Shown: piece after piece, positions 7,881 through 33,872 of the stretch
How positions within the stretch are numbered: the first letter of the stretch is position 1
Layout: every line of letters begins with the position of its first letter
DNA from: Maricaulis maris
GTDB lineage: Bacteria; Pseudomonadota; Alphaproteobacteria; Caulobacterales; Maricaulaceae
DNA: 64,000 nucleotides
Direction of reading: 5' to 3'
Assembly: GCF_036322705.1 (NCBI RefSeq)
Contig: NZ_AP027270.1
Location: 1,737,501-1,801,500, forward strand
Notes under the pieces: generated by a model
Seen by the model: the letters and a program-made list of their open reading frames with translations, nothing else
The model's database searches: none
What the model was told of the DNA's origin: nothing
Position numbers and translations under genes: made by a program

Positions 7881-8011
7881 CCATAAATCCCTTGCCGGGA
7901 GAAAGCCGTATCCGGTTCTTGAGCTCAAGGGGCCTGCCCGCGAAGCGGCGGCTGCGCCGCCCTTGACCTCAAGAACCGGATACGGCCCGCTGGCTGACAA
8001 GGAATCTATGG
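7881..8011. repeat. dispersed long-hairpin repeat, copy 1 (complete)
   Basis: Left arm 7881-7930 and right arm 7961-8011 are inverted repeats of about 50 bp that start with CCATARAT and end in TCAAGG. The 30-base centre (7931-7960) holds a smaller GC-rich hairpin (GCGGC...GCCGC). The innermost 16 bp of the stem is nearly perfect (GTATCCGGTTCTTGAG). Weaker symmetry continues about 20 bp outward on both sides. The same element recurs at 33743-33872 (complete), 40524-40575 (one arm) and 60021-60053 (fragment). No coding frame in it is convincing. It fills most of the 350-base icd-GDPD gap. Confidence 0.85.
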
Positions 8012-8120
8012 ATCGCTGCGCGCGTGGCGCGGCAAAGTTCAATCGCCCCGATCCCGTCCAATTCGTGCCTTGCTACCGCCGCGAGACGCCCCCAACCTCT
8101 CCGGATCTGGGGGACACAGC

Positions 8121-9107
8121 ATGAAAAGACGCTATATCGCACTCAGCCTTCTCGGCGTCGCAGGGGCAGCGCTTTATCTCAACAACGCGTCCTGGCTAGC
8201 GACGCCGCACCGTGAGGCACCCTATTTGATCTCGCATCGCGGCGTACACCAGACGTTCGATCCGGTTGGCGTCGGACCGGATGACTGCACCGCCACCCTG
8301 ATCGATCCACCGCAGCACGGCTTCATCGAGAACACGCTGCCGTCCATGGAATCCGCCTTTGCGGCCGGGGCCAGTCGGGTCGAGATCGACATTCACCCGA
8401 CCACGGATGGCGAATTCGCCGTTTTTCACGACTGGACGCTGGACTGCCGGACCGATGGCACCGGCGTGGTGCGCCAGCACTCGATGGCGACCCTGCGGAC
8501 CCTGGACGCCGGTTATGGCTATACCGCTGATGGCGGCGAGACCTGGCCATTGCGTGGCACGGCGGTCGGCGCCATTCCGACGCTCGGCGAGGTGCTGGCC
8601 GCCTTCCCCGAGCGTGATTTCCTGATCAATATCAAGAGCAATGATGCCGATGAGGCGGACTGGCTGCTGCGCTATCTGGACGCGCGGGCGGTTGATACCG
8701 ATCGCCTGATTGTCGTGGCCGCGCCCCGATCGGACGCCCGCCTGGCCGAGTTGCGGCCAGAGCTGCGCCGAATGAGCCGGGCCCGGGTGCGCGCCTGCGG
8801 CCTGTCCTACCTGGCCTGGGGCTGGAGCGGGCATGTTCCGGAAGCCTGCCATGACACGGTGCTGGTCCTGCCGGCCAACTATGCCCGCCTCGCCTGGGGC
8901 TGGCCGACCCGGCTGGAGGCGCGCATGGCCTCCGTCGGCAGTGAGGTCTGGGTGATGGGCGATCTCGACCGGACCACGATGAACTCGACCGGTATCGACA
9001 CGGTGGACCAGCGCGACGCCCTGCCCAGCCGTTTCCGGGGCGGCATTATGACCAACCGGATCGAACGGATCGGGCCGACATCGCAGGGCCGGACGGACGC
9101 GGAATAG
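8121..9107 (+). CDS. glycerophosphodiester phosphodiesterase family protein
   Basis: 328 residues from ATG 8121, preceded by GGGGGA. It begins with a hydrophobic segment (residues 5-20), a signal anchor or signal peptide, so the enzyme should sit in or beyond the inner membrane. The GDPD catalytic set is present: His39-Arg40 in SHRG, ENT (70-72), Glu88 and Asp90 in VEIDIHPT, and His103 in FHDW. Such enzymes split glycerophosphodiesters to glycerol 3-phosphate and an alcohol. The insert between residues 42 and 68 is longer than in short cytosolic members. It stands alone behind repeat copy 1. Confidence 0.88.
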   Translation: MKRRYIALSLLGVAGAALYLNNASWLATPHREAPYLISHRGVHQTFDPVGVGPDDCTATLIDPPQHGFIENTLPSMESAFAAGASRVEIDIHPTTDGEFAVFHDWTLDCRTDGTGVVRQHSMATLRTLDAGYGYTADGGETWPLRGTAVGAIPTLGEVLAAFPERDFLINIKSNDADEADWLLRYLDARAVDTDRLIVVAAPRSDARLAELRPELRRMSRARVRACGLSYLAWGWSGHVPEACHDTVLVLPANYARLAWGWPTRLEARMASVGSEVWVMGDLDRTTMNSTGIDTVDQRDALPSRFRGGIMTNRIERIGPTSQGRTDAE

Positions 9108-9217
9108 CGCCCGGCAGAAAGAGGCGTCGCAAAACAACTTGAAACGCGGTTCAACAGGTCGATATTGATGCAGAGGGCACCGTCCACGCTGGCGCGGCCC
9201 CGGTCAAAGTGCGCATC

Positions 9218-9607
9218 ATGGATGTAAATTTCGAGTTCGAACCTGACAACAGGCTTTGCGTCTACCGGATTGGCGGCCCCATCACCGTCAGCGACATGAT
9301 GTAGGTCTTCGCCAAGGCTCGCGCGCACCCGGACTGGTCAGACAGCTACGACTTCCTGACCCTGCTCGACCAAGCCTCACTGGCGGCCATGCCTGCCGAG
9401 GCGATGACCAAGCTTCAGGCGCAGATGGCTGCCGCAGATCCGGTCCGCGACGGACCATGCCGACGTGCGGCCATTGTCTGCAATGACGAGCTTTCCCGGG
9501 CAATGCTGGCCTACTGGGAAATGATCGCGGGCGGAACGCTGACCACGGATGAGCGGGTCTTCATGGACGAGGCGGCGGCCCGTAACTGGCTGGCGCAAGC
9601 GCGCTAG
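9218..9607 (+). pseudogene. STAS/SpoIIAA-like small protein interrupted by an in-frame TAG
   Basis: From ATG 9218 to TAG 9605 the frame is 129 codons with one internal TAG at 9302-9304 (codon 29). Both sides read like one protein: before it, MDVNFEFEPDNRLCVYRIGGPIT; after it, ARAHPDWSDSYDFLTLLDQA... and RAAIVCNDELSRAMLAYWE. Such 120-130-residue proteins with a RAHPDW...YDFLTLLD segment are common in alphaproteobacteria and have a STAS-like look (recalled, not searched). An internal ATG at 9389 could still give a 72-residue fragment. It is either a recent nonsense mutation, a base error, or, least likely, amber readthrough. The last codon overlaps the convergent photolyase-like gene. Confidence 0.6.
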
Positions 9608-10818
9608 AAGGTCTGCCCCAGCGCCTCGAGAATACCGGGAATTTCACGCTTCAGCTTGAAGAAGCCCTTGCTGGCATGTGGCCAGCTCAGACGATCATGG
9701 CGACGGGTCGGCAGCGAGATCGAGACCCCGGCCTCGCGCAGGCTGGCGACAAGATCGGGAACAAGATCGCGAACCGGACCGATGGTGGTGTAGGGCAAGA
9801 CCACCGTCTCCAGCGCCTCGGCGCGAACCCAGTTGCACACCAGCTCCAAAACCCCGGCAGTATCAGGCGCCAGCCCGACCGGCCGCGCGCGCTGACCAAA
9901 CATGTCGGCCCTCCCGACAAGTGCCGCCTGCTCAAAGGCGATCACCGCATCCGACACACGCCCCGGCGAGCGCAGAGCCGGGACGGCCAGGGCCAGCACG
10001 CTTGCCGGCGGCTCGGCGGCCGGCCAGCCCTCGTCATGGCTGTCACAGGTCAGCAGCAAGCCCACGCGGCCGGTCAGTGGCACGGCGTCGGGCCAGGCAA
10101 GCGGCACGGGATCGAAGTGGCGGCTCTCCTCGAGGGGGGCCGCTGACTCGTTGAGCTGGCCAACCGGATTGAAGCGACCTTCGGTGAAGCGTTCGATATT
10201 CTCGGCGCGGGCGAGATAGTGTTTGCCCTGGGTATGCAGACCGGCCACCCAGCGCCAGCTGCAGGTGTTGGACGCCGGATCACCATCGATGAGCTGACGC
10301 AGGAAAAAGTCGGCGCCCAGCTGCCAGGGCAGGTCCAGCGTGAAGATCCAGATACTCGCGAACCACATGCGGGCGTGATTGTGCAGATAGCCGGTCTCGA
10401 CCAGTTCGCGGGCCCAGTGGTCAAAGGCATCGATCCCGGTGGTGCCGCTGACCGCTGCCTGCCAGTCCCGCCGCAGCGCCGCATCTTGCTTCAGCCGGCT
10501 TGTCAAAGCCCGCACATCGGTTCGGTAGGCCTCCCAGACACCCGGCCGGTGCTCGAGCCAGCCCTTGAAATAGCTCCGCCAGAACACCTCGCTGACAAAG
10601 GCACCGGCATCGGCCGGGCTGTGCACGGACAGGACGGTCTCGAGAACGACGCGCTCGCTGATCACCCCGTTCCGGATCCAGGGCGACAGGGCCGAGACAT
10701 TGGAGCGGTCCGCCGCACCGAGGTCATGATTGCGGCGTTGGGCGTAATCCCGGCCAAGTCCGGGGAGAACGACATCAAGACGGGCCTTGGCGGCCGTGAA
10801 CGAGGCATCGGTAAACAT
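9604..10818 (-). CDS. photolyase/cryptochrome-like FAD protein with the FAD domain first
   Basis: 404 residues. Residues ~1-220 match the catalytic FAD-binding domain of photolyases: SALSPWIRNG (42-51), FWRSYF (79-84), TGYLHNHARMW (142-152) and GDPASNTCSWRW (179-190) followed by the AGLHT segment. Residues ~250-400 look like an alpha/beta Rossmann-type domain and end in SKGFFKLKREIP. Canonical photolyases have the alpha/beta antenna domain at the N-terminus, so the order here is swapped. Probably binds FAD; photorepair, photoreception or another role cannot be told. Overlaps the end of the broken STAS-like gene by 4 bases, tail to tail. Confidence 0.75.
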   Translation of the reverse strand: MFTDASFTAAKARLDVVLPGLGRDYAQRRNHDLGAADRSNVSALSPWIRNGVISERVVLETVLSVHSPADAGAFVSEVFWRSYFKGWLEHRPGVWEAYRTDVRALTSRLKQDAALRRDWQAAVSGTTGIDAFDHWARELVETGYLHNHARMWFASIWIFTLDLPWQLGADFFLRQLIDGDPASNTCSWRWVAGLHTQGKHYLARAENIERFTEGRFNPVGQLNESAAPLEESRHFDPVPLAWPDAVPLTGRVGLLLTCDSHDEGWPAAEPPASVLALAVPALRSPGRVSDAVIAFEQAALVGRADMFGQRARPVGLAPDTAGVLELVCNWVRAEALETVVLPYTTIGPVRDLVPDLVASLREAGVSISLPTRRHDRLSWPHASKGFFKLKREIPGILEALGQTF

Positions 10819-10902
10819 GGTAGATGTCCGGCTGACTACTACCGGGCAAACTAGGTCGCGCCGCGCGCGGGAACAGGCGTCCGATGTGTCAGGGGACAGG
10901 CC

Positions 10903-11352
10903 TCAGCCGAATGCCCCGCCCGCCCGCTTCAGTGTGACGAAGGTTTCGGCCTCGATCTGCCAGACGCCGTCGACGCTGCGCCACTTGGCGAAATACCGGC
11001 CGGAATAGCGGATCGCCAGACCCTCGCTGGACCAGGCGCCCTTCCAGCGACCGGTCTCGGCAGCCAGATGGCTGTCCTCGCAGACCTCGATCCGGGCCGG
11101 GGTGCGGACATAGCTGACATCCGGCATCTGGCTGAAGATCGAGGCCCAGGCCTCCAGCTGCGCATCGCGCCCGGTAATCAGCTGGGCCTCATCGCCCGGC
11201 ACCAGAACGGCATCCTCGGCCAGATGGGCGGCGATTGCCTTCAGGGCCCGGGCTTCGAGCGCGGCGTTGAAATCGGCGCGCGCCGCGGCTATCGCCCGCG
11301 CTGCCGACTTGTCACCAACCAGCTGGATATCGAGCCGCGAGGACCGCGCCAT
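10903..11352 (-). CDS. SnoaL/NTF2-like (DUF4440-type) protein
   Basis: 149 residues. After a short variable N-terminus, the sequence AARADFNAALEARALKAIAAHLAEDAVLVPGDEAQLITGRDAQL... and the closing GRYFAKWRSVDGVWQIEAETF are typical of the NTF2-like cone fold used by DUF4440 and ketosteroid-isomerase-like proteins. Its ATG overlaps the alaS stop as TGATG, which suggests translational coupling to alaS. Substrate and reaction unknown. Confidence 0.8.
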   Translation of the reverse strand: MARSSRLDIQLVGDKSAARAIAAARADFNAALEARALKAIAAHLAEDAVLVPGDEAQLITGRDAQLEAWASIFSQMPDVSYVRTPARIEVCEDSHLAAETGRWKGAWSSEGLAIRYSGRYFAKWRSVDGVWQIEAETFVTLKRAGGAFG

Positions 11353-14006
11353 CAGCCGGCCAGCACGTCACGGATCGCCGCGAGACCGGCGTCGGCCTTC
11401 GATCCGTCCGGACCACCGGCCTGGGCGAAGTCCGGTCGGCCGCCGCCGCCCTTGCCGCCGACAGCACCGGCCCCGGCCTTGACCAGATCGACCGCGCCGA
11501 AGCGGTCCTTGAGATCATCGGTAACACCGACCGCCAGCGCGGCCTTTCCGTCATTGACGCCGATGAAGGCCGCTACGCCGGAGCCCATCTGGGCCTTGGC
11601 CTCGTCGATCAGGCCGCGCAAATCCTTGCCGCCGACCCCTTCGACCACCCGGCCAATGAAGTTGACGCCATTGATCGTCTCCGGACCCGCCGGTGCGCCC
11701 GAAGCGCCTCCGCCCATGGCGAGCTGCTTCTTCGCCTCGGCGAGCTGGCGTTCCAGCTTCTTGCGCTCCTCCATCAGGGACGAGACACGGGTTGCCAGGT
11801 CAGCGGTCGGGATCTTCAGCGCATCGGCCGCGGCACGGCCGAAGCCCATCTGCTCTTCCATGTAGAGGCGGGCGCCCTCCGCGGTCATCGCCTCGATACG
11901 GCGGATGCCGGAGGAGACGGCGGTCTCGGCGACGATCTTGAACAGGGCGATATCGCCGGTACGCGCGACATGAGTGCCGCCGCACAGCTCGACCGAATAC
12001 GGCTTGTCATGGTCGCCGAGCGCCTCGCCCATGGTGAGAACGCGGACCTTGTCGCCATATTTCTCGCCAAACAGGGCCAGCGCGCCCGCCTCGATGGCAG
12101 CGTCCGGTGTCATCTCGCGGGTCGAGACCGGGCTGTTCTGGCGGATCACCGCATTGACCTGGGCCTCGATCGCCGTGATCTCGACCGCTGTCACCGACTT
12201 GTTGTGCGAGAAGTCGAAGCGCAGACGGTCGGGACCGACATGCGAGCCCTTCTGGGTCACATGCCCGCCGAGCACGTCGCGCAGGGCGGCATGCACGAGG
12301 TGTGTGGCCGAGTGGTTGGCGCGAATGGCGGCACGGCGCGGCGCATCGGCATCCAGCGTCGCGCTGTCGCCAAGGGTGATCTCGCCCTTGGTCAGCACAC
12401 CGATATGGGTGTGCATGTCACCGCCACGCTTCTGGGTGTCCTCTACGATGAAGACGGCCCCGTCGGTGAAACGGATTTCACCGGTATCGCCGCACTGGCC
12501 GCCACTCTCGCCGTAAAACGGTGTCTGGTCGAAAACGAGCTCGGCGCGTTGGCCGGCGCCAAGCGCCTTGGTTTCCTGCCCACCCGAGACGATCGCCACC
12601 AGGCGGCCCTCGCCACCGGCTCCGGCATAGCCGGTAAAGGCCGTCGCACCCGCCTTGTCGCGGACCGAGAACCAGACCGCATCCGGAGCGGCATCACCGG
12701 AGGAGAACTTGCTGGCCCGCGCATCAGCGCGCTGCTTGTCCATCGCCGTCTCGAACCCGGCCTCGTCGACCGTCATGCCCTTGGCGCGCAGGGCGTCCTG
12801 GGTGAGGTCGAGCGGGAAACCGAAAGTGTCATAAAGCTTGAACGCCGTCTCACCCGCAAGGGCATCGCCCTTGGACATGCCGGCGGTTGCCTCTTCAAGC
12901 AGGGTCAGACCGCGGCCGAGCGTACGCTGGAAGCGCTCCTCCTCGACCTTCAGCGAATCCTCCAGCAGGGCCTGGGCACGGCCGAGCTCGGGATAGGCCT
13001 CGCCCATCTCGGCCTGCAGGGCCGAGACCAGCTTCCACATCACCGGCTCATGGGCACCGAGGATATGGGCATGGCGCATGGCCCGCCGCATGATCCGGCG
13101 CAGCACATAGCCGCGGCCCTCATTGGAGGGGCTGACCCCATCGGCCATCAGGAAACAGGTCGAACGGAGGTGGTCGGCGATCACCCGGTGGCTGGCCAGC
13201 GCCGCCCCCTCGGCCTTCACACCGAGCACCGCCTCACCCGCCGCGATCAGATTGCGGAACAGGTCGGTCTCGTAGTTGTTGTGCTTGCCCTGCAGGATGG
13301 CGGAGATGCGCTCCAGCCCCATGCCGGTATCGATCGACGGCTTGGGCAGGTTGATGCGCTCGTCCGGGCCGAGCTGCTCGAACTGCATGAAGACGAGGTT
13401 CCAGATCTCGATGAAACGATCGCCATCCTCGTCCGGCGAACCGGGCGGTCCGCCCGGGATCGACGGGCCGTGATCGAAGAAGATTTCCGAACACGGACCG
13501 CAGGGGCCGGTATCGCCCATTGACCAGAAATTGTCCGAGGTGGAGATGCCGATGATGCGGTCATCGGAAAGACCGGCAATCTTGCGCCACAGGGCGCGCG
13601 CTTCCTCGTCCTCGGAATAGACCGTGACCAGGAGCTTGTCGGCGGGCAGTTCGAATTCGCGGGTGACCAGCTGCCAGGCGTGGGCGATCGCCTCTTCCTT
13701 GAAGTAGTCGCCGAAGGAGAAATTGCCCAGCATCTCGAAAAAAGTGTGGTGGCGGGCCGTGTAGCCGACATTGTCGAGGTCATTGTGCTTGCCACCGGCA
13801 CGCACACATTTCTGCGACGAGGTCGCGCGCGGCAGGGCTCGCTTTTCCTGACCGGTGAAGGCGTTCTTGAACGGGACCATGCCGGCGTTCACGAACAGCA
13901 GGGTCGGATCGTCCTGCGGCACCAGCGGCGCCGATTGCACCACCTCGTGGTCGTGTCTGGCGAAATAGTCGAGGAAAGTCGCACGGATGTCGCGCAGGCT
14001 GGCCAT
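11352..14006 (-). CDS. alaS: alanine-tRNA ligase
   Basis: 884 residues, full length for bacterial AlaRS. The class II aminoacylation core begins [30 protein letters not shown]; the editing domain contains the zinc-binding pattern HSATHL...[12 protein letters not shown]; the C-Ala domain with DHHA1-like glycine-rich [16 protein letters not shown] ends the protein. Charges tRNA-Ala and clears mischarged Ser/Gly-tRNA. Located downstream of recA on the same strand but 363 bases away. Confidence 0.98.
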
Positions 14007-14369
14007 GATGTCCGATCCCGTCGGCTGGAGTGTCGCGTCTCCGCAGGATCTGCGGACACAAACCGGTTTCTGTTGAGTGACATATAGAAACGGGTGCCCG
14101 GCCTAGCCAAGCACCCGTTCATAATCAAGCTGCGATTGTCGCCTCACCGTGGCGTTGAGGCCGCGTGCCCCGGCACCGACTCGCTTCTGACCACCCGGCA
14201 AGGCCGTTCTGGACAGGCCCGCCGCCGGCTGGAGGGTCCCGGCGGTAGCCGCAGCGGGTTGGCGATGTTGACGGCAGGCCACAGCAGGCCGGAGAGGTGC
14301 TGCGAGGCGCTCCGACCCGGGCGATCAAGCCGACCGCCTGCCAGAGTCCCCGCAACAGCCGCGCCCAAC
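14007..14369. other. alaS-recA intergenic region with one inverted repeat
   Basis: This 363-base stretch contains a perfect 8-bp inverted repeat ACGGGTGC / GCACCCGT (about 14091-14121) with a 14-base loop. On the minus strand it is followed by TTTCTATAT, so it could be a weak terminator of recA or part of the alaS leader. Open frames across the rest have no ribosome site and no recognisable protein; I see no gene. Confidence 0.4.
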
Positions 14370-15458
<1,089 letters not shown>

Positions 15459-15519
15459 CCCTTATTTCATGCCCCTCAGGTGCGGGCAACCAGATGCTGA
15501 TGTACCAATTTTGTTCCGG

Positions 15520-15534
15520 GAACACAAGCGGAAC
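15520..15534 (-). promoter_or_regulatory. SOS box (LexA operator) of recA
   Basis: On the minus strand the sequence GTTCCGCTTGTGTTC is an exact GTTC-N7-GTTC, the LexA operator of alphaproteobacteria. It ends about 60 bases before the recA start. It lies in a 164-base divergent region and is also about 90 bases upstream of the mltF start, so effects on both genes are possible. Confidence 0.85.
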
Positions 15535-15622
15535 ATTTATGGTTAACAAAACGGAACAAAAACCGATCACGAGTCATAATTGCCAATTTGAATTCCACAG
15601 ACACAGCCCCTAACTTGGGTAG

Positions 15623-17008: not shown

Positions 17009-17022
17009 GGCCTCGCGCGCCG

Positions 17023-18708: not shown

Positions 18709-18715
18709 GGTCATC

Positions 18716-18777
18716 CTCCCCGTTTTTCGGCCCGCTTTTCGGCTCTCTTTTTGGCCCAGTTTTCCGGCCCGGTTTTC
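18716..18777 (-). repeat. five 12-13-base purine-rich direct repeats leading into the ribosome site
   Basis: On the minus strand five consecutive units of the form AAAANCGGGCCG (13, 12, 12, 12 and a final unit that becomes AAAAACGGGGAGG) end in the Shine-Dalgarno sequence of the acyl-CoA ligase. If an upstream ATG at 18786 were used, the units would code for a Lys/Arg/Gly-rich 4-residue repeat. Confidence 0.7.
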
Positions 18778-18859: not shown

Positions 18860-18885
18860 TTGTCTGTTGATCCGGTCGTCGCAGC

Positions 18886-24537: not shown

Positions 24538-24548
24538 TTCACTCTGGT

Positions 24549-24689: not shown

Positions 24690-24690
24690 G

Positions 24691-26238
24691 TCAGAGATCC
24701 AGCTGCATCTGGTTGGCGGGCGGCGGGCTTGCCACCTTCTTGCGGGCATGGCGACGTCCCGGCGGTGTCGCACGGCTGCCATGGCGGACCAGGACATCCC
24801 TGGAAGCCGACCTGAAGCCCGCCTCGCGGCGACGGCCGAACACTGCCTCCCGGGCCGTGCGCGCCGCCTCGACCAGATCGATGATGGGCTCGGGATAGAT
24901 CCGTCCCAGCACTTGCCCTGCGCCTGACCACAGCCAGGGTTGTTGCAGCCAGCGGTCGGGTACCGCCTCCAGCTCGGGCAACCAGCGCCGGGTGAAAGCG
25001 CCGTCCGGATCCTGGTCCTCGCCCTGCTTGACCGGGTTATAGATCCGGATCGCATTCACCCCCGTGGTGCCGGACTGCATCTGCACCTGCGGCCAGTGAA
25101 TGCCCGGCTCGTAATCGGTGAATTTGCGCGCCAGCACAGTCCCGCTCGCCTGCCAGGGCTGCCAGAGATGATAGCTGGCAAAGGAGACCAGCATCGCCCG
25201 CATGCGAAAATTCATCCAGCCGGTCTCGTTGAGACAGCGCATGCAGGCATCCACAAACGGGACCCCGGTCTCGCCGCGTGACCAGGCCTCAAGCCGGACC
25301 GGGTCCGGTGCGTCGGGTCGAAGGCCCGCCAGTCCGGGATGCATGTCGGTGTTCTCGAGGCGCGGTTCGTCCTCGAGTTTCTGCATGAAATGATCGCGCC
25401 AGTGCAGCCGGCTGACAAAGCTTTTCATCGAGCCCGCCCAGGGTCCCGACCGGGCCTGTTGCGCCAGCCCGGCCTGCCGAGACCAGCCGGCTTGGGCGAC
25501 CTCGCGCAGGGACAGCGTTCCCAGTGCGATATGGGGCGACAGGCGGGAGCAATGCAGCGCGCCGGGACCGGGCGAGGACATCGCCTTGCGATAGGGCGCG
25601 CCGCGGGTCTCCAGAAAGCTGCGGAGCCGTTCCAGTCCGGCGGTACGCCCCCCGGGCTGGCGTTGCGGACAGGGATCCTCGGCCAACCCCAGCTGACGCG
25701 CCGACGGCCAGGGATCGCTGGCCACCACCGGTCCGTTCAATCGCTCCGGCCGGACCGCGCCGGGCCGGGCCATCCATCGGTCCCAGCGCCGGGCCCAGCC
25801 ATTGCGCGAGGTCGCCCCGCGCTCGACGCCGCACTGGCGCAACTGGGTCCAGACCACGCCGGCCTGGCGCGCCCACGTGGCGACCACACGGTCGCGGGCA
25901 AAGGTCCAGCCATTGCCGGTCTCCTCATGCGACCACAGACGGAACGGGCCGAGCGTCTGGCGCAAGGCTTCAAGAACGGTCTCCACGGCGCCGACGCGAA
26001 TCACCAGCGGCGTTCCCGCTGCGGCCAGCTGGTCGGCCAGCTCGGTCACGCTGTCGCCGAGGAAGGCATGCTGGCGCGCGGACATGTCGGGCTGGTGCCA
26101 GTAATCCGGTTCGACGACATAGAGCGGCACAACCGGCCCTGCCCCCGTCGCGGCCATCAGGGCAGCGTGACCGTCAAGCCGCAGATCGCGCTTGAACCAG
26201 ACAATCTGGACCGGGGTATCAGGGCTGAAGGACGACAT
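24691..26238 (-). CDS. phr: cryptochrome/DNA photolyase family protein
   Basis: 515 residues from ATG 26238 (MSSFSPDTPVQIVWFKRDLRL); the frame is open 126 codons further but without homology. The N-terminal antenna domain starts VWFKRDLRLDGHAALMAA and holds the EETGN segment. The FAD domain includes SRLSPHIALGTLSLREV, WRDHFMQKL, a TGWMNFRMRAM helix and the segment GTTGVNAIRIYNPVKQGEDQDPDGAFTRRWLPEL. Light-driven repair of pyrimidine dimers is likely but a photoreceptor role cannot be excluded. DUF2256 follows directly. Confidence 0.9.
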   Translation of the reverse strand: MSSFSPDTPVQIVWFKRDLRLDGHAALMAATGAGPVVPLYVVEPDYWHQPDMSARQHAFLGDSVTELADQLAAAGTPLVIRVGAVETVLEALRQTLGPFRLWSHEETGNGWTFARDRVVATWARQAGVVWTQLRQCGVERGATSRNGWARRWDRWMARPGAVRPERLNGPVVASDPWPSARQLGLAEDPCPQRQPGGRTAGLERLRSFLETRGAPYRKAMSSPGPGALHCSRLSPHIALGTLSLREVAQAGWSRQAGLAQQARSGPWAGSMKSFVSRLHWRDHFMQKLEDEPRLENTDMHPGLAGLRPDAPDPVRLEAWSRGETGVPFVDACMRCLNETGWMNFRMRAMLVSFASYHLWQPWQASGTVLARKFTDYEPGIHWPQVQMQSGTTGVNAIRIYNPVKQGEDQDPDGAFTRRWLPELEAVPDRWLQQPWLWSGAGQVLGRIYPEPIIDLVEAARTAREAVFGRRREAGFRSASRDVLVRHGSRATPPGRRHARKKVASPPPANQMQLDL

Positions 26239-26327
26239 GTCCCCACAGATAGCCTTCCGGAGCGGCGGGGAAAGAGAGACCGGCTGCGACAGTGCCCGAC
26301 CGCGGGTCGGCGCCCTGTCGCGCGATC

Positions 26328-26678
26328 TCAGCCCTCGTCTGCCTGGCGTCCCGTCGGCACACCGGCCTTGTCGAGCTCGGCGTCCAGCTTGCCCGCGAGG
26401 AAGAGGCCATACATGCGATAATCGCCAATCAGCGACCAGAGCGGATAGGTGAAGGTCGCCGGCTTGTTGCGCTCGACAAAGGCGTGACTGACCCAGGCGA
26501 AGAAATAGCCCGAGACCGGCACCGCCGCGAGCAGCCACCAATTGCGCGAGACCAGCGCGTAGATCAGCACGAAGATGGCCAGGGTCGAGCCGACAAAATG
26601 CCAGGCCCGGGTCCACGGCTTGGCGTGTTCCTGGAGATAGAAGGGCCAGAAGGACTGGAAGGTCGCGTGCTCGCGCAT
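26328..26678 (-). CDS. DUF962/Mpo1-like membrane protein
   Basis: 116 residues with a CGGAG site 6 bases before ATG 26678. MREHATFQSFWPFYLQEHAKPWTRAWHFVGS and the second-half SHAFVERNKPATFTYPLWSLIGDYRM are the DUF962 signature with conserved His residues; two hydrophobic segments lie near 28-60. The yeast homologue Mpo1 is an Fe-dependent dioxygenase of 2-hydroxy fatty acids. 89 bases upstream of the photolyase gene and on the same strand. Confidence 0.88.
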   Translation of the reverse strand: MREHATFQSFWPFYLQEHAKPWTRAWHFVGSTLAIFVLIYALVSRNWWLLAAVPVSGYFFAWVSHAFVERNKPATFTYPLWSLIGDYRMYGLFLAGKLDAELDKAGVPTGRQADEG

Positions 26679-26844
26679 GGTCAACTCCGGTGATTCGCCA
26701 GCCGATTCAGGGGCTCGGCGGCTTTGTGGCCCGAGATCGGGCAAAGATCATGGTGAATGAAATCTACCGACTTATCCACGCATTTCCATGATTCCATTAG
26801 GAATCCGGCAATGACAATAAACCAAATCCCCAATTCTTCCGATC

Positions 26845-26958
26845 CCGTTAACCCAGCTTTAAGGGTTCGGGCCCGATTTTAGGTGCGTCTTCCCGTGAAG
26901 ACACCCCACCATCCACCCAATGCCTTTTCGGGAGCCCCAGCGGCTCCCGATTTTTTTT
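26845..26958 (+). ncRNA. candidate small RNA ending in an orphan terminator
   Basis: The plus strand between the minus-strand DUF962 start and tRNA-Asn has no protein gene, yet shows three successive hairpins: AACCC/GGGTT (26851-26868), GTCTTC-ccgt-GAAGAC (26887-26902) and a strong terminator (26929-26958). Between the second and third lies an unpaired C-rich stretch (ACCCCACCATCCACCC) of the kind that can pair with ribosome sites. The 5' end is uncertain; a promoter was not identified with confidence. I do not recognise the RNA. Confidence 0.5.
26929..26958 (+). terminator. Rho-independent terminator without a coding gene upstream
   Basis: An 8-bp perfect stem CGGGAGCC / GGCTCCCG with a 5-base loop is followed by eight T (26951-26958). 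The nearest plus-strand gene upstream is more than 2 kb away, so it most likely ends a short transcript made from this gap. Confidence 0.85.
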
Positions 26959-27048
26959 GCACACACTTCCGGCTTCTTGCGCAGCAGGGTGCTTGCGCCC
27001 CGAGCAAAAGCTCTGATAAAAGCCGGTCCTCGCTTGAGAGCACGGTAT

Positions 27049-27124
27049 TCCTCGGTAGCTCAGTTGGTAGAGCAGGTGACTGTTAATCACCGGGTCGGCG
27101 GTTCGAGCCCGTCCCGGGGAGCCA
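27049..27124 (+). tRNA. tRNA-Asn (GTT)
   Basis: Acceptor stem TCCTCGG pairs with CCGGGGA (one G-T pair). The anticodon GTT is at 27082-27084, D-arm AGCTCAGTTGGTAGAGC and T-arm GGTTCGAGCCC are canonical, and the 3' CCA is encoded. Length 76. A weak promoter (TTGCGC, then ATAAAA 17 bases later) ends about 27 bases upstream. Confidence 0.97.
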
Positions 27125-27158
27125 CTCTCAAGAGATCGCCAGTCCGCTGGCACGACAG

Positions 27159-27181
27159 GCCCGCTTCCGAGCGGGCTTTTT
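27159..27181 (+). terminator. Rho-independent terminator of tRNA-Asn
   Basis: Stem GCCCGC / GCGGGC with a 6-base loop and a following run of five T, 34 bases past the tRNA. Confidence 0.82.
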
Positions 27182-27216
27182 CGTATCCGGATCCAGCGAA
27201 CGGGCTGCGCCCGCGC

Positions 27217-28713
27217 CTAGTCCCAGAAACTGGGCAGGAGCAGGACGAGGAAGGTGAGCACTTCCAGGCGCCCGAGAATCATTTCCAGCGACAACAGCCA
27301 TTTGGCGGCGTCCGGCAGGCTGGCAGAATTGCCCGCCGGTCCGATGATCTCACCGAGACCGGGGCCGACATTGGTGATCGCGGTGGCGCTGCCTGACAGC
27401 GCGGTGACAAAGTCGAGACCCGTCAGGCTCAGCGCGATGGCGAACATGATGAAGGTCACGAAGAAGACCACGACCATGACAAGGACGCCGATCCAGGCAT
27501 CCTCTTCCATGCGGCGGCCATCGAAGGTCCGCGACACCACCCGCGACGGCATCACGGTGCGCATCAGATAGCGCCGGATGACCTGGTAGAGCACCAGCAG
27601 GCGGTAGGCCTTGATCCCGCCGCTGGTTGACCCGGCACACCCGCCCAGAAAGGTCAGCGCGAAGAACACGGTGATCGCCGCCCCGCCCCAAGCGGTATAG
27701 TCCGTGCTGGCATAGCCGGTCGTCGTGACCACGGAAACGGTATTGAAGGCGGACGCCAGCAAGGCCTCTCCAAAGCCCGCCGCCGATGTCGATGCGTGCC
27801 AGACCGCCAGCGAGACCGACGCGAACAGCAGGATAATGAGCAACGAGCGAACCTGCGGGTCCCGCAGGAAAATGGTGCGGTCGCCGTCGATGAATTTCAG
27901 ATAGGCGACAAACGGTATGGCGCCGGCAATCATGAAGACGATCGCCGCCAGGTGGAGACCGGTCTGCTCGAAATGGCCGAAGCTGGCATCATGGGTTGAA
28001 TAGCCACCGGTGGATAGCGTCGTCAGCGCGTGATCGATGGCGTCAAACCCGCTCATGCCGAGGCTTGAATAGACAAAGGCGCACAACAGGGTCATGGCCG
28101 CATAAATGGTCAGGATCCGCAAAACGAAAACATGCGCCCGGGCCTCAAACTTGCCGGACGGGTCAGAGCTTTCCGTACTGAGCAACTGCATACCGCCCAC
28201 CCGCATGAAAGGCAGAAGAGCGACCGCGATGACGATGATCCCGACCCCGCCAATCCATTGCAGGAGAGAGCGCCACAAAAGAAGGCTGGGGTGGAGCGCG
28301 TCGAGATCGCCGATCACGGTCGACCCGGTTGTGGTCAGGCCCGAAGCGGCCTCGAACACCGCATCGGTCCAGCTCATGCCGTGGAAGGTGAAGGGGATGG
28401 CAGAGACCAGAGGCATGATGAACCAGCTCGCGCCGGTAATCAGGAAAGCCTGGCGATGATCCAGAACAAGCTCGAACGTCGACCGGCTCGCGCCAAAAAC
28501 CAGACCACCGACCGCCAGGCTGCCGAACATCGGGACGGCGAACATCAAGACATTGCCGTCCGCCTCGCCCATCTCCATCAGGAAAGGGACCAGCATCGCC
28601 GCCCCGCTTCCCATGACGAGAAGCGAGAGGATGAAAACAACGGGGAAGCTGTGCATTTGGGGGCGTCCTGGAAAACGGGTCTTGATCGGGACCGGGTCGG
28701 GACTGACGCTCAT
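27217..28713 (-). CDS. trkH: TrkH-family potassium uptake protein
   Basis: 498 residues from ATG 28713, fixed by AGGAGG 7 bases upstream. Four pore repeats each supply a filter segment; visible are ASGLTTTGSTV, ALTTLSTGGYST, FNTVSVVTTTGYAS and GSATAITNVGPGLG. About ten membrane helices. TrkH/Ktr subunits conduct K+ (or Na+-coupled K+) with a cytosolic TrkA-type regulator, which is not in this window. Monocistronic; convergent with tRNA-Asn. Confidence 0.95.
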   Translation of the reverse strand: MSVSPDPVPIKTRFPGRPQMHSFPVVFILSLLVMGSGAAMLVPFLMEMGEADGNVLMFAVPMFGSLAVGGLVFGASRSTFELVLDHRQAFLITGASWFIMPLVSAIPFTFHGMSWTDAVFEAASGLTTTGSTVIGDLDALHPSLLLWRSLLQWIGGVGIIVIAVALLPFMRVGGMQLLSTESSDPSGKFEARAHVFVLRILTIYAAMTLLCAFVYSSLGMSGFDAIDHALTTLSTGGYSTHDASFGHFEQTGLHLAAIVFMIAGAIPFVAYLKFIDGDRTIFLRDPQVRSLLIILLFASVSLAVWHASTSAAGFGEALLASAFNTVSVVTTTGYASTDYTAWGGAAITVFFALTFLGGCAGSTSGGIKAYRLLVLYQVIRRYLMRTVMPSRVVSRTFDGRRMEEDAWIGVLVMVVVFFVTFIMFAIALSLTGLDFVTALSGSATAITNVGPGLGEIIGPAGNSASLPDAAKWLLSLEMILGRLEVLTFLVLLLPSFWD

Positions 28714-28793
28714 CACCCGCCTCCTGAGACAGTTGGCCTGACGCCTGATTAGCCAAAAGCCCGACACCGCCCAACCGGTTTTGGCGGCCGCCC

Positions 28794-29516
28794 CTACTCC
28801 AGCCGCGCGTCCAGCGCCCGCGCCGCTTTGAAAAAGCGGGCCCGTAGGTCTGCCGCATAGGGGTTGTGGCGCTCGATGGCGCGGAAGAGATCATCGCTGT
28901 CGCCGGCGACCAGATCGGCGGCCTGCTTGAGCAGGTCATAGCTGCGCGTCGTATAGGGCGCAGATGGCAGGTCGAGATCGGTGATGACCTTGGACACCAG
29001 ATGGGTCAGCGCCTGCACGCTGGCCATGGTTCGGTCATGGGTGTCGGCATCGGACAGGTGAACCTCGAGCCGCAGATCATCACGCAGCACATGCGCCACA
29101 CAGGTCGGATCAACGCCGGGATCGGGACACAGGACGATGGATTGTCCCTCCAGGCCGTCCGCCGCGCTCTGGGGACCGAAAAGCGGGTGGGTGCCAAGGA
29201 TCCGCGTCCCGGCCGGCAGGTTGTCCCGCATCGCCGCCATCGGCTGCAGCTTGACCGAGGCTACGTCGACGACCAGCGCCCCCTCACTGAGATGCGGTGC
29301 GATCTGTTGGCAGACCGTCGCCATGAGCTGGACCGGCACGGCCAGGATCACAACGTCGCGCGAGGCTGCCTCCGCAAGCTCGACACAGCGCACATCCTCC
29401 AGGGCTGCGACCGCCGGGTCATGCGCGACCAGATCGAGGTGCGGGGCGAGATGGGTCGCGGCGAGCCGACCGAAGGCGCCGAGTCCGATCAGGCCGACGA
29501 GCGGGGTTGCGGTCAT
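28794..29516 (-). CDS. tyrA: prephenate/arogenate dehydrogenase family protein
   Basis: 240 residues. The Rossmann start LVGLIGLGAFGRLAATHLAPHL, the DVASVK segment near residue 85, and the conserved GTHPLFGPQS are typical of the short TyrA form without ACT or chorismate mutase domain. It makes 4-hydroxyphenylpyruvate or tyrosine from prephenate or arogenate. Its ATG overlaps the stop of the upstream frameshifted membrane gene as ATGA. Confidence 0.88.
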   Translation of the reverse strand: MTATPLVGLIGLGAFGRLAATHLAPHLDLVAHDPAVAALEDVRCVELAEAASRDVVILAVPVQLMATVCQQIAPHLSEGALVVDVASVKLQPMAAMRDNLPAGTRILGTHPLFGPQSAADGLEGQSIVLCPDPGVDPTCVAHVLRDDLRLEVHLSDADTHDRTMASVQALTHLVSKVITDLDLPSAPYTTRSYDLLKQAADLVAGDSDDLFRAIERHNPYAADLRARFFKAARALDARLE

Positions 29517-30231
29517 GATTGCTCACCGGTGAACTCGCCGGCCTCGGCACGCTGCAAGCGGTCCTCATAAAAGCGGATCCATCGATCAATATTGGGCATT
29601 CCACGCCACACGCGGTAAATCATGTAGCCCGCCGCCGCGGTCACCGCCCCGGCGGCGATGCGGTAAATCACGATCATCCAGGAAATCACGGCATTTTCGG
29701 GATTATTGCTGATCGGGGTGAGCCCGAGTCGAAACACCTCCGGGACATCGGCAAGAGCACCGCGGAAAATCTGATCAATCAGAAAAACTCCGATCTCGCC
29801 GAAGGCCGGCGCGCCGGAACCACCACCGTCCACCAGGATGGGCCGCGCGTAATCCGGCAACAGCCAGTCATGCAGCCAAACCGAGCAGAAGACGACACCC
29901 CCCGGGACGACCAGGCCCAGCACGACCAATCCCCCAAGGCCTGCCAGATCCCCCCGATGATCGTGGCGCGACGATCCCGATAGCGTTGCAGGCGGTCACG
30001 GATTGTTTGTGGACGGGTGGGTATCGGTCCGGAGAGCTTTTCATCGGATTCCAGCTCAACGGCGCGAACGCCCTTCAGCAGACCGAGCTGGCGCTGTGCG
30101 GCGACGAGACTGACGGCATAGGTGAGCGCCAGCGCGGTCCACGCATAGATGCGCTGTGCCTCCACAGACGTGACCGCGCCGCCAAAGCCGCTGGCCTGAA
30201 AAGCCTGCCAGCCATCCACAATCAATTCCAT
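29513..30231 (-). pseudogene. membrane protein gene with an apparent frameshift
   Basis: Two overlapping frames seem to be one gene. The first (from ATG 30231) reads sensibly for ~110 residues to GGIWQALG and then turns into Trp/Cys/Arg-rich nonsense. The second frame continues with LVVLGLVVPGGVVFCSVWLHDWLLPDYARP and a further membrane helix (WMIVIYRIAAGAVTAAAGYMI), ending as ATGA on tyrA. The switch is at a run of five G on the coding strand (plus 29931-29935), where one extra G or a -1 slip joins the frames to ~239 residues. Mutation, base error or programmed shift cannot be told apart. Family unknown; probably three membrane helices. Confidence 0.6.
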
Positions 30232-30286
30232 TGAACGCCCCCACGCTATCCACCCAGACTAGGCGGCACGACCGCAAAGACAACGC

Positions 30287-32191
30287 CTATTCGGCGACAG
30301 ACACCTTGGCGGCATCCAGGCTGGCCCCGACTGCCGAGACCGCCTCGCTCTGCCGGCGCCACATGTCGGCATAGAGGCCGCCAAGCGCGAGGAGTTCGTC
30401 ATGGGTGCCGGTTTCGGCCACCTTGCCGGCATCGAGCACGAAGATGCGGTCGGCGCTGGCAATGGTCGAGAGCCGGTGGGCCACGGCGATGGTGGTGCGC
30501 CCCTCGGCGGCGTCACCCAGGGCGTCCTGGACTTCCTGCTCGGTCTGGCTGTCGAGCGCCGAGGTGGCCTCGTCGAGGATCAGCACGGCGGGGTCCTTGA
30601 GGATGGCGCGGGCGACACCGACCCGCTGCTTCTCGCCACCGGAGAGCTTGAGGCCCCGCTCGCCGACCAGGGTCTCCAGACCGTCCGGCAGGCCGCGCAC
30701 GAAAGCCGACAGATGCGCCCGCTCGAGCACATCGGCGATCTCGGCCTCGCTGGCGTCCGGCTTGCCGTAGACCACATTGGCGCGCAGCGTATCGTTGAAC
30801 AGGACGACGTCCTGCGGCACCAGGCCAAGCGCATCGCGCAGGCTGGTCTGGGCGATGGTGCGCAAGTCCTGGCCGTCAATCGAGACACGACCGGCCTCGG
30901 GATCATAGAAGCGGAAGAGGAGCCGCAGGATGGTCGACTTGCCAGCGCCCGACGGACCACAAATCCCGACGAAACTCCCGGCCGGAATGTCCATCGAGAC
31001 GCCGCCGAGCGAGCGCGAGCGGCCGTCATGGGTGAAGGTCACGTCCTCGAAGCGGACGGCACCGCCTGCAAGGGTGAGCGGACGGGCGTCCGGTGCGTCG
31101 GCGACATCGGGCTTCAGCGCCAGCGTCTCATAGACGCGCTCCATGTCAACCGCGCCCTGCTTGATCTCGCGATAGGCCCAGCCGAGGATGTTGAGCGGCT
31201 GATAGATATTCATCAGCACCATGGTCACCGCGGCCACGTCGCCGGCTCCCAGAATGCCGTTATAGGCCTTCCAGCCCGCCGTCAGCGCCATCGCCAGCAG
31301 GCCGGCATTCATCACAAATGCCTGCAGGCCGTTGAGCAGGGCGAGGGAGGACTGCGAGCGCGCAGCGGCCTGGGCGTAGCGCGTCATCGCGTCATTATAG
31401 GCGTCACTCTCGCGCTCTTCCGCGGCGAAGGCCTTGACCGTCTCGAAATTGATCAGCCCGTCGACCGCCCGCGCGGAGGCCTCATTGTCGGCCTCATTCA
31501 TCTGCCGCCGGATGACCACACGCCACTCGGTCATGGTCCAGGTCAGGCTCATGTAGATGACGATGGTGACCACTGCGATGACCGCGAACTCCCAGCCATA
31601 ATTGGCGCTGAGCACGATGGCGGCGAGGGTCAGTTCGAACAGGGTCGGCGCGATATTAAAGATCAGGAAGCGCATCAGGAAATCGACGGCGCGGGCGCCG
31701 CGTTCAATGATGCGCTGCAGGGCGCCGGTGCGCTTTGACTGGTGATAGCCGATCGACAGGCGCTGGACGTGGGCGAAGGCGCGGACGGCCGTCAGCCGCT
31801 GGGCGTCCTGGCTGACAGGGGCGAACATCGCATCGCGCAATTGCGGCGCGCCGACCGAGAGGAAACGCGCCACGGCATAGGCGATGAAGGCGAGCGAAAA
31901 CGTCGTCAGCACAGTCGGCCAGAGCGTACTGCCCGCCTGCTCACCCTGGGACGCGCCGCCGCCGCCGGTGGCGTCAACAATCAGGTTGATGCCGTCGCCG
32001 AACAGGATGGGCGCGCCGACCGAGAACAGCTTGGCAATGACGGTCAGCACCAGCGCCAGCACCATGCGGAACCGCCATTTGGCCATCTCCGGCGACGCCA
32101 GCAGCGCCGTCAGTCGCCACATGGTCAGCCCCAGCGAGCCTTGCGGCGCCTGCTTGGCCTCTTCCTCGCTATCGGGCTTGGTCGGTCTCAT
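30287..32191 (-). CDS. Atm1/ABCB7-type ABC exporter
   Basis: 634 residues, a half-transporter with an N-terminal six-helix membrane domain (~35-330) and a C-terminal ATPase: Walker [10 protein letters not shown], signature [10 protein letters not shown], Walker [15 protein letters not shown]-loop AHRLST. The long N-terminus and the segment [38 protein letters not shown] are characteristic of the Atm1 group, which in alphaproteobacteria exports glutathione-derived or metal-glutathione compounds. Monocistronic. Confidence 0.93.
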
Positions 32192-32287
32192 CGTGTCGAG
32201 AGATAGGGCGTTGCGCAGACAAGCGCCAGAGGGCGGGCGCGTGCAGACACACCGTCCGGCCTGAGCCCGACGCCCGGCAATTCCGGG

Positions 32288-33265
32288 TCAGACCTCCGGG
32301 CGCGCCTTGGCCGCCGCTGTCGGCGGGCCGTCACGACCGACCCGGTTCTGCCAGTCGCGCCAAAGCGCCGAGCCGGCCTCGAGAAGGCCCCAGCCCCCGG
32401 ACAGCGCCATCGCCAGCTTCATGATCTCGTTTGCCGGCTCGGCGGCGAAGACGTCACCGGCGAGGACGATCTGCAACAGCGCCACCGACAGCACCAATGT
32501 CAAACCGGTATTGATCCGGCGCGTCAGCCGCGTCCAGCGACCGGTCATGACCGGCCAAGCCTGGCCAAGGATCGCGAGGGCGAGCAAGGCCCACAAGACA
32601 ACGGACCGCTCGGCGGCGAATACGGCATCGTAGGCGAAGGCCGCCAGCAGCGGCGCTGGTGCGTCCGCCCCCATCACAGACGCGACCAGGGTCGAGGGGC
32701 CAACCGCCAGCATGGCGAGACCGGCGGCCCAGAAGGCGATGGCCGGGACCATCAGCGCCCGATTGACCGCATCGGGGTCGCGCACGGGCGGCAGGTTGTC
32801 GGGCGACCAGCTGCGGGGCGGCGTCCGTCGACGCAACGTGCCAACCACCCAGAAGACGAGCAGCAGCAGACCCAGACTCTGCAACCCTGTCTTCGTGGCC
32901 TCGTCGGTCAGGTGGCTGCCGAACATCGGATCGGTGCCGGCGGCCGGATCGGACAGCGCGACGCCGATCGCCAGAATGGAGATGGCCCCGAGTAGGATCA
33001 CCGCAATCTTCCCGAACAGGCGTGTATCCCGGGGATCCAGCACGGGAGCGGGCGTGTGATAACGCAGGGCCATGGCGTCCGGCGGACCGTAATCGGCCAG
33101 CAGGTCGCGCGCAGCGGCCTCATCCGGTGCAGCATCTCCCGCCCGCGCCTCGACTTCCTCGGTCAAGAGCACCGTCAGCTCGGCACTGATATCGGCGCGC
33201 AAGGCCTGCGGCAGGCGCCGCACCACCGCATGGACGTAACGGTCAATCATCTCACTTGCGGTCAT
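32288..33265 (-). CDS. HAAS-domain membrane protein
   Basis: 325 residues. Residues 1-75 (MTASEMIDRYVHAVVRRLPQALRADISAELTVLL...LLADYGPPDAMALRY) match the HAAS/DUF1700-like helical signalling domain normally encoded next to PadR regulators. Five or so hydrophobic segments follow. Its ATG overlaps the padR stop as ATGA, so the pair is co-translated. Probably a membrane partner under PadR control; its biochemical role is unknown. Confidence 0.82.
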   Translation of the reverse strand: MTASEMIDRYVHAVVRRLPQALRADISAELTVLLTEEVEARAGDAAPDEAAARDLLADYGPPDAMALRYHTPAPVLDPRDTRLFGKIAVILLGAISILAIGVALSDPAAGTDPMFGSHLTDEATKTGLQSLGLLLLVFWVVGTLRRRTPPRSWSPDNLPPVRDPDAVNRALMVPAIAFWAAGLAMLAVGPSTLVASVMGADAPAPLLAAFAYDAVFAAERSVVLWALLALAILGQAWPVMTGRWTRLTRRINTGLTLVLSVALLQIVLAGDVFAAEPANEIMKLAMALSGGWGLLEAGSALWRDWQNRVGRDGPPTAAAKARPEV

Positions 33266-33609
33266 TTCGACACTCCATCGGTGATGAGATCATCCATGAC
33301 CGCGCTCAGCGCCTGCCATGATCGGGAAAGTCTGGCGTAGAGTTCCGCGCCGGCCTCGCTGAGGGCGTAATAGCGCCGCGGCGGGCCGTCTCCGGTCCGC
33401 CATTCGCTGACCAGCAAGCCCTGCGCCTCCAGACGCCGCAACAGCGGGTAGAGCGTGCCCTCCTCGATCTCCATGCCCCGCGCCGCGAGGGCCTGGCGCA
33501 GGGAGTAGCCGTATTGGGCGCGGGTCAGCTGCGACAAGGCCGCCAGCACGATCGCACCGCGGCGCAATTCGAGTTCAAGTTTCGAGAATGGGTCTGAAGG
33601 CTCTACCAT
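33262..33609 (-). CDS. PadR-family transcriptional regulator
   Basis: 115 residues from ATG 33609. A winged helix with the PadR pattern LELRRGAIVLAALSQLTRAQYGYSLRQAL, EEGTLYPLLRRLEAQGLLVSEW and RRYYALSEAGAELYARL, followed by a short dimerisation helix. PadR proteins are mostly repressors that also bind their own promoter. First gene of a two-gene operon with the HAAS membrane protein; a 5-bp inverted repeat lies just upstream. Confidence 0.92.
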   Translation of the reverse strand: MVEPSDPFSKLELELRRGAIVLAALSQLTRAQYGYSLRQALAARGMEIEEGTLYPLLRRLEAQGLLVSEWRTGDGPPRRYYALSEAGAELYARLSRSWQALSAVMDDLITDGVSK

Positions 33610-33622
33610 GCAGCACACTATA

Positions 33623-33637
33623 CTGTGAGTCGCACAG
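33623..33637. promoter_or_regulatory. candidate PadR operator
   Basis: CTGTG-agtcg-CACAG, 14 bases upstream of the padR start, inside an AT-rich stretch. PadR regulators usually bind short inverted repeats of this layout in their own promoter; the assignment is inferred from position. Confidence 0.4.
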
Positions 33638-33742
33638 CATGTAAGTGCCAAAAATCGGAACGGGCACCATTTTCCCTCCTGGAATAACCGGGAGAGACGC
33701 AATCACTGCCCCTCTCCGCCCGCGCGCCCGGCGCATACCCAA

Positions 33743-33872
33743 CCATAAACCGCTTGCCGAGAGATCGCCGTACCCGCTTCTTCAGGTCAAGGGCCGCGAG
33801 GCGGCCGCCTCGCGGTTCCACCCTTGAGCTGAAGAAGCGGGTACGGCCTGCTGGCTGACAAGCGATCTATGG
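33743..33872. repeat. dispersed long-hairpin repeat, copy 2 (complete)
   Basis: Left arm 33743-33793 and right arm 33821-33872 form a ~50-bp inverted repeat like copy 1; the loop holds a perfect 9-bp palindrome (CCGCGAGGC / GCCTCGCGG). The inner stem reads GTACCCGCTTCTTCAG and pairs fully, although it differs from copy 1 at three positions. Outer sequence GCGCCCGGCGC before the left arm is shared with copy 1. The 338-base padR-LysM gap holds nothing else besides the padR operator. Confidence 0.85.

Follow-up and report, generated by a model that had tools for sequence, protein, structure and literature searches.

A dispersed hairpin repeat of Maricaulis with matched arms and a two-orientation apex: a candidate DNA structure kept in place

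Introduction

Several described systems invite comparison with the dispersed long-hairpin repeat analyzed here, of which two complete copies lie in a 64,000-nucleotide stretch of the Maricaulis maris chromosome (hereafter the window; G000:C1:1737501-1801500 of a 3.14-Mb single-contig genome, G000). The Caulobacter CcrM-associated intergenic repeats, CIR1-4 (Chen and Shapiro 2003), are described in passages of PMC2229807 as palindromic, multi-copy sequences of ~110 bp with predicted hairpins, in which a GANTC methylation site occupies the terminal loop and two stem-loops are joined by a linker, the ends remaining unpaired. Repetitive extragenic palindromic (REP)/BIME sequences (GTAG and CGTC superfamilies; RAYT transposases) are, in excerpts of PMC3733652, extragenic palindromes of 20 to 40 bp with alternative complementary stem residues. 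Miniature inverted-repeat transposable elements (MITEs) such as ERIC, Correia/NEMIS, and RUP appear in a table in PMC2229807 as sequences of 100 to 200 bp with inverted-repeat ends and stable hairpins. Finally, for rRNA hairpins maintained by template switching, compensations plus loop inversion are attributed to one replication event; according to parts of that report, the combination is the authors' strongest footprint and extremely rare in the rRNA data, with six cases (PMC8794818).

The Maricaulis element resembles the CIR in being alphaproteobacterial, intergenic, palindromic, multi-copy, and predicted to form hairpins. It is unlike them, as they are described, in pairing its ends in one long hairpin and in its lack of a conserved GANTC, which occurs anywhere in 13 of 142 distinct copies and at its commonest position in 7 (the 142 are a sample, for which family-rich genomes contributed their listed matches). 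The CIR were thus rejected on GANTC and fold, a distinction drawn from their partial description and not from the CIR1-4 sequences. Extragenic palindromes with alternative complementary stem residues are common to the element and to REPs as excerpted, whereas REPs are 20 to 40 bp long and bear a GTAG or CGTC tag and the Maricaulis element measures ~172 bp. A Y1 transposase (PF01797) was detected in 5 of 19 Maricaulis genomes, G000 included, and was absent from G002, G003, G007, G016, and G017, the five richest carriers of the element besides G000; because most rich carriers lack PF01797, mobilization of the RAYT/IS200 type was rejected. The rRNA hairpins share with the element the compensatory changes and loop inversions expected from one event, as far as the consulted parts of their description go, and differ in that here both apex orientations are common, the apex spans 25 to 29 nt, and the molecule is not rRNA.

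MITEs are a partial match. The size range, the inverted-repeat ends, and the stable hairpins are like those tabulated for MITEs, and terminal inverted repeats are present as an outer stem with GCGC-rich flanks equidistant on both sides. Against this, no fixed-offset direct repeat that could be a target site duplication was found in 140 copies, each copy is conserved in place, and no parent transposon is known, PF01797 alone having been searched. Neither the collected loci nor two further loci gave a clean empty-site junction, and variable-offset duplications were not obtained from them. Overall, the element is outside the definitions of CIR, REP, and classical MITE, the last being partly matched. 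A known RNA family was also rejected, as no Rfam match reached the gathering score: the window gave only three tRNAs, and 20 relatives from the same order gave 12 weak matches, all below that score. The original prediction, made from the window, that no described family fits agrees with these searches and with the open-licence literature, in which no description from Maricaulis was found.

The family combines a predicted fold and covarying arms with a fixed stem length, a conserved basal loop, a frequent apical mismatch, and two apex orientations. It is placed between genes with few divergent neighbors, and its orthologous copies are conserved beside nearly randomized spacer. Arms that stay matched while their sequence drifts, in copies still recognizable within scrambled spacer, make these look like kept DNA structures. 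Our preferred reading, held tentatively (rough probability, 0.42), is that of a dispersed ~172-bp DNA hairpin or cruciform element, now largely kept in place, whose arms may co-evolve through selection plus template switching.

Results

Copies in the window. The two complete copies placed at 7881-8011 and 33743-33872 were confirmed in the sequence, and their 16-bp inner stems indeed differ at three positions, every one compensated. In both copies the 16-bp stem is part of a 27-bp stem that is 96% complementary. Folding z-scores were -7.35 for copy 1 and -11.47 for copy 2, none of 200 shuffles being as stable in either case. A covariance model built from 65 copies (R1; alignment A1) matched over the full length with 181.5 bits (copy 1) and 180.4 bits (copy 2), scores that are not independent, as both copies are in the training alignment. 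The one-arm copy originally placed at 40524-40575 does mark an element, with its extent revised: a decayed copy spans 40496-40665 on the minus strand (R1, 45.4 bits, E 2.8e-10), and this is the arm that has survived better. The fragment proposed at 60021-60053 found no support, being recovered neither by R1 (E up to 5) nor by blastn with copy 1 (E up to 1). The features are as follows.

7862-8030, plus strand: complete copy 1 over its whole extent, including the two flanking GCGC hairpins (R1 match 7851-8039, 181.5 bits; family-wide conservation limits)
7862-7872, plus strand: copy 1, 5' flanking hairpin GCGC-CCG-GCGC, 8 nt upstream of the core (sequence; position conserved in 140 copies)
7881-7894, plus strand: copy 1, outer stem, left arm (CCATAAATCCCTTG; pairs with 7998-8011; helix 1 of the covariation test)
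7895-7904, plus strand: copy 1, asymmetric basal internal loop, left side (CCGGGAGAAA; family CCGRGAG; alignment A1)
7905-7931, plus strand: copy 1, 27-bp stem, left arm, ~19 bp variable, top TCAAGGG conserved (96% complementary; helix 2)
7932-7959, plus strand: copy 1, apical module, orientation A, two small hairpins and a linker (fold, orientation scan)
7960-7986, plus strand: copy 1, 27-bp stem, right arm (complementarity)
7987-7997, plus strand: copy 1, basal loop, right side (family CTGCTGGCTGA; alignment A1)
7998-8011, plus strand: copy 1, outer stem, right arm (predicted fold)
8018-8030, plus strand: copy 1, 3' flanking GCGC hairpin (sequence; conserved position)
33722-33893, plus strand: complete copy 2 over its whole extent, including the flanking hairpins, 3' boundary approximate (R1 match 33713-33900, 180.4 bits)
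33743-33872, plus strand: copy 2, core, outer stem to outer stem (sequence, predicted fold)
33767-33793, plus strand: copy 2, 27-bp stem, left arm (complementarity)
33794-33820, plus strand: copy 2, apical module in orientation B, the inverse of that in copy 1 (fold, orientation scan)
33821-33847, plus strand: copy 2, 27-bp stem, right arm (complementarity)
40496-40665, minus strand: decayed copy 3, better kept arm at 40524-40575 (R1, 45.4 bits, E 2.8e-10; sequence)

Anatomy of the element. Conservation runs from ~21 nt before CCAT to ~20 nt after ATGG (140 copies), the two motifs that end the A1 consensus core. From the 5' side, the ~172 bp comprise a GCGC hairpin, 8 nt, an outer stem running from CCAT to CTTG, the loop CCGRGAG, the 27-bp stem ending in TCAAGGG, and the apical module; the right stem arm, the right loop CTGCTGGCTGA, the outer stem from CAAG to ATGG, 8 nt, and the 3' GCGC hairpin complete the layout. 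The outer stem, 14 bp long, pairs both ends of the core, 86.2% of its cells being paired. The length of the 27-bp stem is constant despite near-total rewriting in some copies and in distant Maricaulis species, and the 142 copies hold 65 distinct 19-nt left arms.

The position beside TCAAGGG is mismatched in 106 of the 142 copies (54 C·C, 52 G·G). The apex, 25 to 29 nt long, is in orientation A in 77 copies and B in 64 (1 unclear), and all 54 C·C mismatches fall in A copies and all 52 G·G mismatches in B copies, indicating that the mismatch belongs to the inverted module. A long stem with two small tip hairpins in two orientations is also found in the inverted terminal repeat of adeno-associated virus, a viral genome end replicated by Rep protein; the likeness lies in the long stem and the two-orientation tip, and nothing suggests a viral origin of the Maricaulis element.

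The scan that yielded the 142 copies required at most seven arm mismatches and merged identical copies, and is hence biased to paired arms; partial copies and L014 were left out of it. Eight copies skipped in an early parse were re-added for A1, from which L075_-600 was omitted (run of N). L014 (G000:C1:1912645) has a left-type basal loop at both ends and is possibly a recombinant of two oppositely oriented copies. Three further loci, L036, L045, and L038, have lost the long stem and kept the outer one, as expected from deletion at a hairpin.

Covariation and matched arms. Of all cells in A1, 92.3% pair, and changes on both sides were seen in 23 of 41 pairs (165 cells), a covariation reached by none of 500 shuffles and exceeding the slid controls (16 to 38 cells), as is to be expected of a selected structured element. 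Among the 142 copies, 2,640 of 2,698 variable-stem cells were Watson-Crick and 58 were not, bearing in mind the bias of the scan, and no permutation of arms among copies gave as few mismatches (0 of 2,000). Uncompensated arm changes at an equal rate across the family, which the original prediction had named as the outcome that would count against it, were therefore not what we observed.

Because that scan demanded pairing, the test was repeated on copies collected with an exact pattern and no pairing requirement (41 matches, 40 of them distinct; the best-fit register was chosen and was the same in 37 of the 40). Arms differed at a mean of 0.9 of 19 positions within a copy versus 4.5 between copies; 39 copies had three or fewer arm mismatches, and the remaining one had seven.

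Evolution at orthologous sites. Judged by flank similarity, 94 cross-genome pairs appear to be orthologous, 52 of them by both flanks; some copies recur in more than one pair, and the pairs are not independent. Core identity in these 52 pairs was 0.893 versus 0.542 and 0.515 in the adjacent 100 nt on either side, unrelated flanks giving 0.448, and the core was more conserved than both flanks in 49. Over all 94 pairs, orthologs were 0.894 identical versus 0.752 for non-orthologous copies in other genomes, and the ortholog ranked first in 88 of 188 comparisons with a median of 23 copies each. Stem positions in the 52 pairs had changed on both arms in 52 instances, on one arm in 46, and otherwise in 2, with 940 unchanged; the corresponding figures for all 94 pairs were 109, 75, 5, and 1,691.

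Apex orientation, called on both sides in 93 orthologous pairs, was the same in 78 and opposite in 15. For three opposite pairs, in-place inversion of the apex is the best fit: L007/L084 (reverse-complement identity 0.89, direct 0.70) and L086/L176 (0.85 and 0.67), both with two orthologous flanks, and L053/L168 (0.93 and 0.61), with one. As the A and B modules already resemble each other's reverse complements, these inversions may instead be replacements by the module of another copy, and in several other opposite pairs the module has plainly diverged or been replaced. The alternatives originally offered, a structure under selection or arm homogenization by hairpin copying, thus each receive support, the former from the conserved layout and in-place conservation, the latter from opposite apex orientations at orthologous sites, as expected of template switching.

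Individual loci illustrate both stasis and change. The L031 copy is common to G000, G002, G003, and G007, with one compensated difference in G003 (by eye). At the locus of copy 2, the corresponding intergenic region of G002 and G016 also holds a copy, whose stem is of another type. At the L010 locus, the G002 copy (L265) is basally opposite, by eye, to those of G000, G003, and G016 (L263, L266, and L267), which would fit an independent insertion or a whole-element inversion.

Distribution in Maricaulis and beyond. In G000, blastn with copy 1 (E of 1 or less) gave 59 matches, many being both strands of one palindromic copy, which collapse to 39 places (some of them fragments only), 23 of which were parsed with both arms. 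A two-ended exact pattern hit 37 stretches in a named genome collection, every one titled Maricaulis. Within the genus, R1 found the element in 17 of 19 genomes. Match numbers ranged from 2 to 115 and did not exceed 10 in nine of these 17; the two genomes lacking a match include one that is 100% complete. These and the following covariance-model counts are per strand, with palindromic copies counted twice, and apply to the candidates scored. At family level 19 of 137 genomes matched, 17 of them Maricaulis.

At order level, 49 of 398 genomes gave R1 matches, representing 12 of the 59 genera. All 20 order loci examined by eye have TCAAGG...CCTTGA atop the long stem, a shared motif that is partly ascertainment, since the loci were found through R1. 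Most examples from another family, f3, also have flanking hairpins and the loops GGCGAGACGATC and CTGCAGCCTCCAA, which are similar to the Maricaulis loops. A second covariance model, R2, was built from nine f3 copies, all nine of which have a C·C mismatch at the same place. R2 shows covariation in its own right (23 of 62 pairs, 45 cells), reached by none of 500 shuffles; one of five measures, that of further pair types, was not above them. R2 matched Maricaulis copies at full length (best E 4.9e-14; 15 matches in G003 and 3 in G000) and found the element in 18 of a chosen set of 20 genomes; the two f2 genomes tried gave no match. At class level it matched 1 of 385 genomes, G000 being missed too, so that its sensitivity is low; the single match argues against chance matches to any long hairpin. 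On sequence evidence, a common ancestry of the Maricaulis element and its order relatives is likely. At loci L284 to L290, in other families of the order, a long perfect hairpin stands beside the long hairpin in place of the GCGC hairpin.

Passage on a phage or plasmid was rejected, as two exact patterns found no match in viral contigs and blastn with copy 2 and with one f3 relative found none in phages or plasmids. Copies are clustered on the chromosome: a single 20% arc contains 20 of 39 listed places in G000 (simulation p 0.0015) and 20 of 35 in G003 (p 0.0005), and the half of the chromosome away from hemE, near which we take the origin to be by analogy with Caulobacter, holds 19 of 23 and 23 of 32 copies, respectively. 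On the same assumption there was no leading/lagging bias in fork direction (12 of 23 and 18 of 32 copies).

Gene context. Contexts were derived from a crude open reading frame (ORF) caller with errors, such as a plus-strand call at 40575-43418 where a minus-strand NAD synthetase-like gene (by eye) is likelier; the names icd and GDPD-, LysM-, and PadR-like were assigned by eye. None of 121 classifiable copies overlaps a called gene. Their neighboring genes are convergent in 53 cases, co-directional in 54, and divergent in 14; of 144 background gaps 100 bp or longer, 28, 75, and 41 fall into the respective classes (same caller, element-bearing loci included). The proposal that copies lie between co-directional genes consequently holds for the two complete window copies, from the ORF lists, and fails as a family rule given the 53 convergent placements.

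The residual stem mismatches of the 142 copies (of 2,698 cells) comprise 15 G·T, 12 A·C, and 31 others, and, for co-directional copies read on the transcript, 3 G·T and 8 A·C. There is accordingly, albeit in small numbers, no wobble preference; had the stem been selected as RNA on one strand, greater tolerance of G·U than of A·C would be expected. The basal orientation relative to co-directional genes was 33 versus 21. Neither complete window copy is directly followed by a T-run. A role as the icd terminator was rejected, since 13 of 18 Maricaulis genomes (by eye; the count covers genomes other than G016) have a separate hairpin with at least five T downstream of icd, while the element lies beyond it, within 330 nt, only in G000, G002, and G017; from G007 it seems to have been removed by a deletion. 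In the window, the terminator-like hairpin with its T-run is at 7798-7826. In G002 (L075), two copies with identical interiors lie ~2 kb apart near the icd locus, one of them adjoining a run of N, which may be a duplication or an assembly artifact. Taken together, these comparisons favor a structure that would act as DNA rather than RNA.

Discussion

The element may take the form of an extruded cruciform, or of a hairpin in single-stranded DNA, with a long hairpin, a branched apex, and two short flanking hairpins. It would work as DNA, on either strand, a putative structure-specific host protein reading the basal loop and the apex, while the stem, free in sequence, would serve as a ruler of fixed length. 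Both selection and template switching across the hairpin would clear arm mismatches, the latter also inverting the apex. Some mechanism would have dispersed the family, most copies of which would now be maintained by selection.

A non-autonomous mobile element, MITE-like or a single-strand transposon served by a transposase encoded elsewhere, is a somewhat unlikely alternative that would nevertheless account for the very unequal copy numbers among the 17 carrier genomes and the two without matches, for the absence of copies at some orthologous loci, for near-identical cores at unrelated places in G003 and G002 (0.954 to 0.985), and for the G002 pair at the assembly gap. The greater abundance of copies in the chromosome half away from hemE points the same way, and the lack of a fixed-offset target duplication is compatible with a single-strand mechanism. 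On this reading the hairpins would be the transposase substrate, and their conservation would stem from the needs of transposition together with gene conversion between copies. Against it, many copies occupy orthologous sites and greatly exceed their flanks in conservation, PF01797 is missing from the five richest carriers other than G000, and no copy was found in viral contigs, phages, or plasmids. We consider it somewhat less probable that the element is a transcribed 3'-end structure (for stability or processing, or a multi-copy noncoding RNA) with its RNA fold under selection. The strong fold and covariation, the shift toward convergent placement at the expense of divergent gaps, and a weak sense bias of the apex would all suit an RNA. 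Yet wobble pairs are not preferred, overall or on transcripts, the basal orientation to co-directional genes is divided (33 versus 21), and the use of either apex orientation would make two different RNAs; the complete window copies lack a directly following T-run, a separate terminator-like hairpin precedes the element at icd, and Rfam gave no match at the gathering score.

Template switching alone, matching the arms of an element under no selection, is disfavored and seems very improbable to us. It would produce the two-arm changes seen in place at orthologous sites (52 versus 46 one-arm and 2 other in the 52 pairs; 109, 75, and 5 in the 94) and the opposite apex orientations at such sites, both of them footprints of the process according to the consulted parts of PMC8794818. 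A blind process would, however, erase the internal mismatch, yet C·C or G·G persists in 106 of 142 Maricaulis copies and in 9 of 9 f3 relatives, so that selection probably acts too; the fixed stem length and loop motifs, and conservation beside nearly randomized flanks, likewise speak against it.

Several observations weigh against the reading as a kept DNA hairpin. Cores at unrelated places within a genome are up to 0.985 (G003) and 0.962 (G002) identical, which means that dispersal or gene conversion is not all ancient, and some of the in-place conservation could be a semblance created by gene conversion between copies. Among both-arm changes, C-G exchanges occur most often (42 of 109), a pattern that neither ordinary point mutation nor template switching alone explains and to which inter-copy exchange may contribute. 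Some loci have no copy in close relatives. The wobble test draws on 27 cells, G·T and A·C combined, a G·U pair is frequent in the f3 relatives (5 of 9), and the apex sense relative to transcription in co-directional copies (35 versus 19, uncorrected p 0.04) would suit an RNA role. The whole case, moreover, is built from sequence.

A broader proposal goes beyond the preferred reading of a kept DNA hairpin in Maricaulis: an order-wide class of flip-flopping branched cruciforms with fixed-length, sequence-free stems, read by shape by a dedicated host protein and kept by selection, with template switching as the routine arm-matcher and tip-inverter. From the comparisons above, we regard this as unlikely, if worth stating.

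How long hairpins keep their arms matched under drift is an open question, for which template switching has been proposed (PMC8794818, in the parts consulted). With natural replicates numbering in the tens per genome, many of them at sites orthologous across several species, and with an invertible tip and an internal mismatch, the present family makes mutation and selection separable. If a host protein binds the elements, they would represent a new class of shape-coded chromosomal site in alphaproteobacteria.

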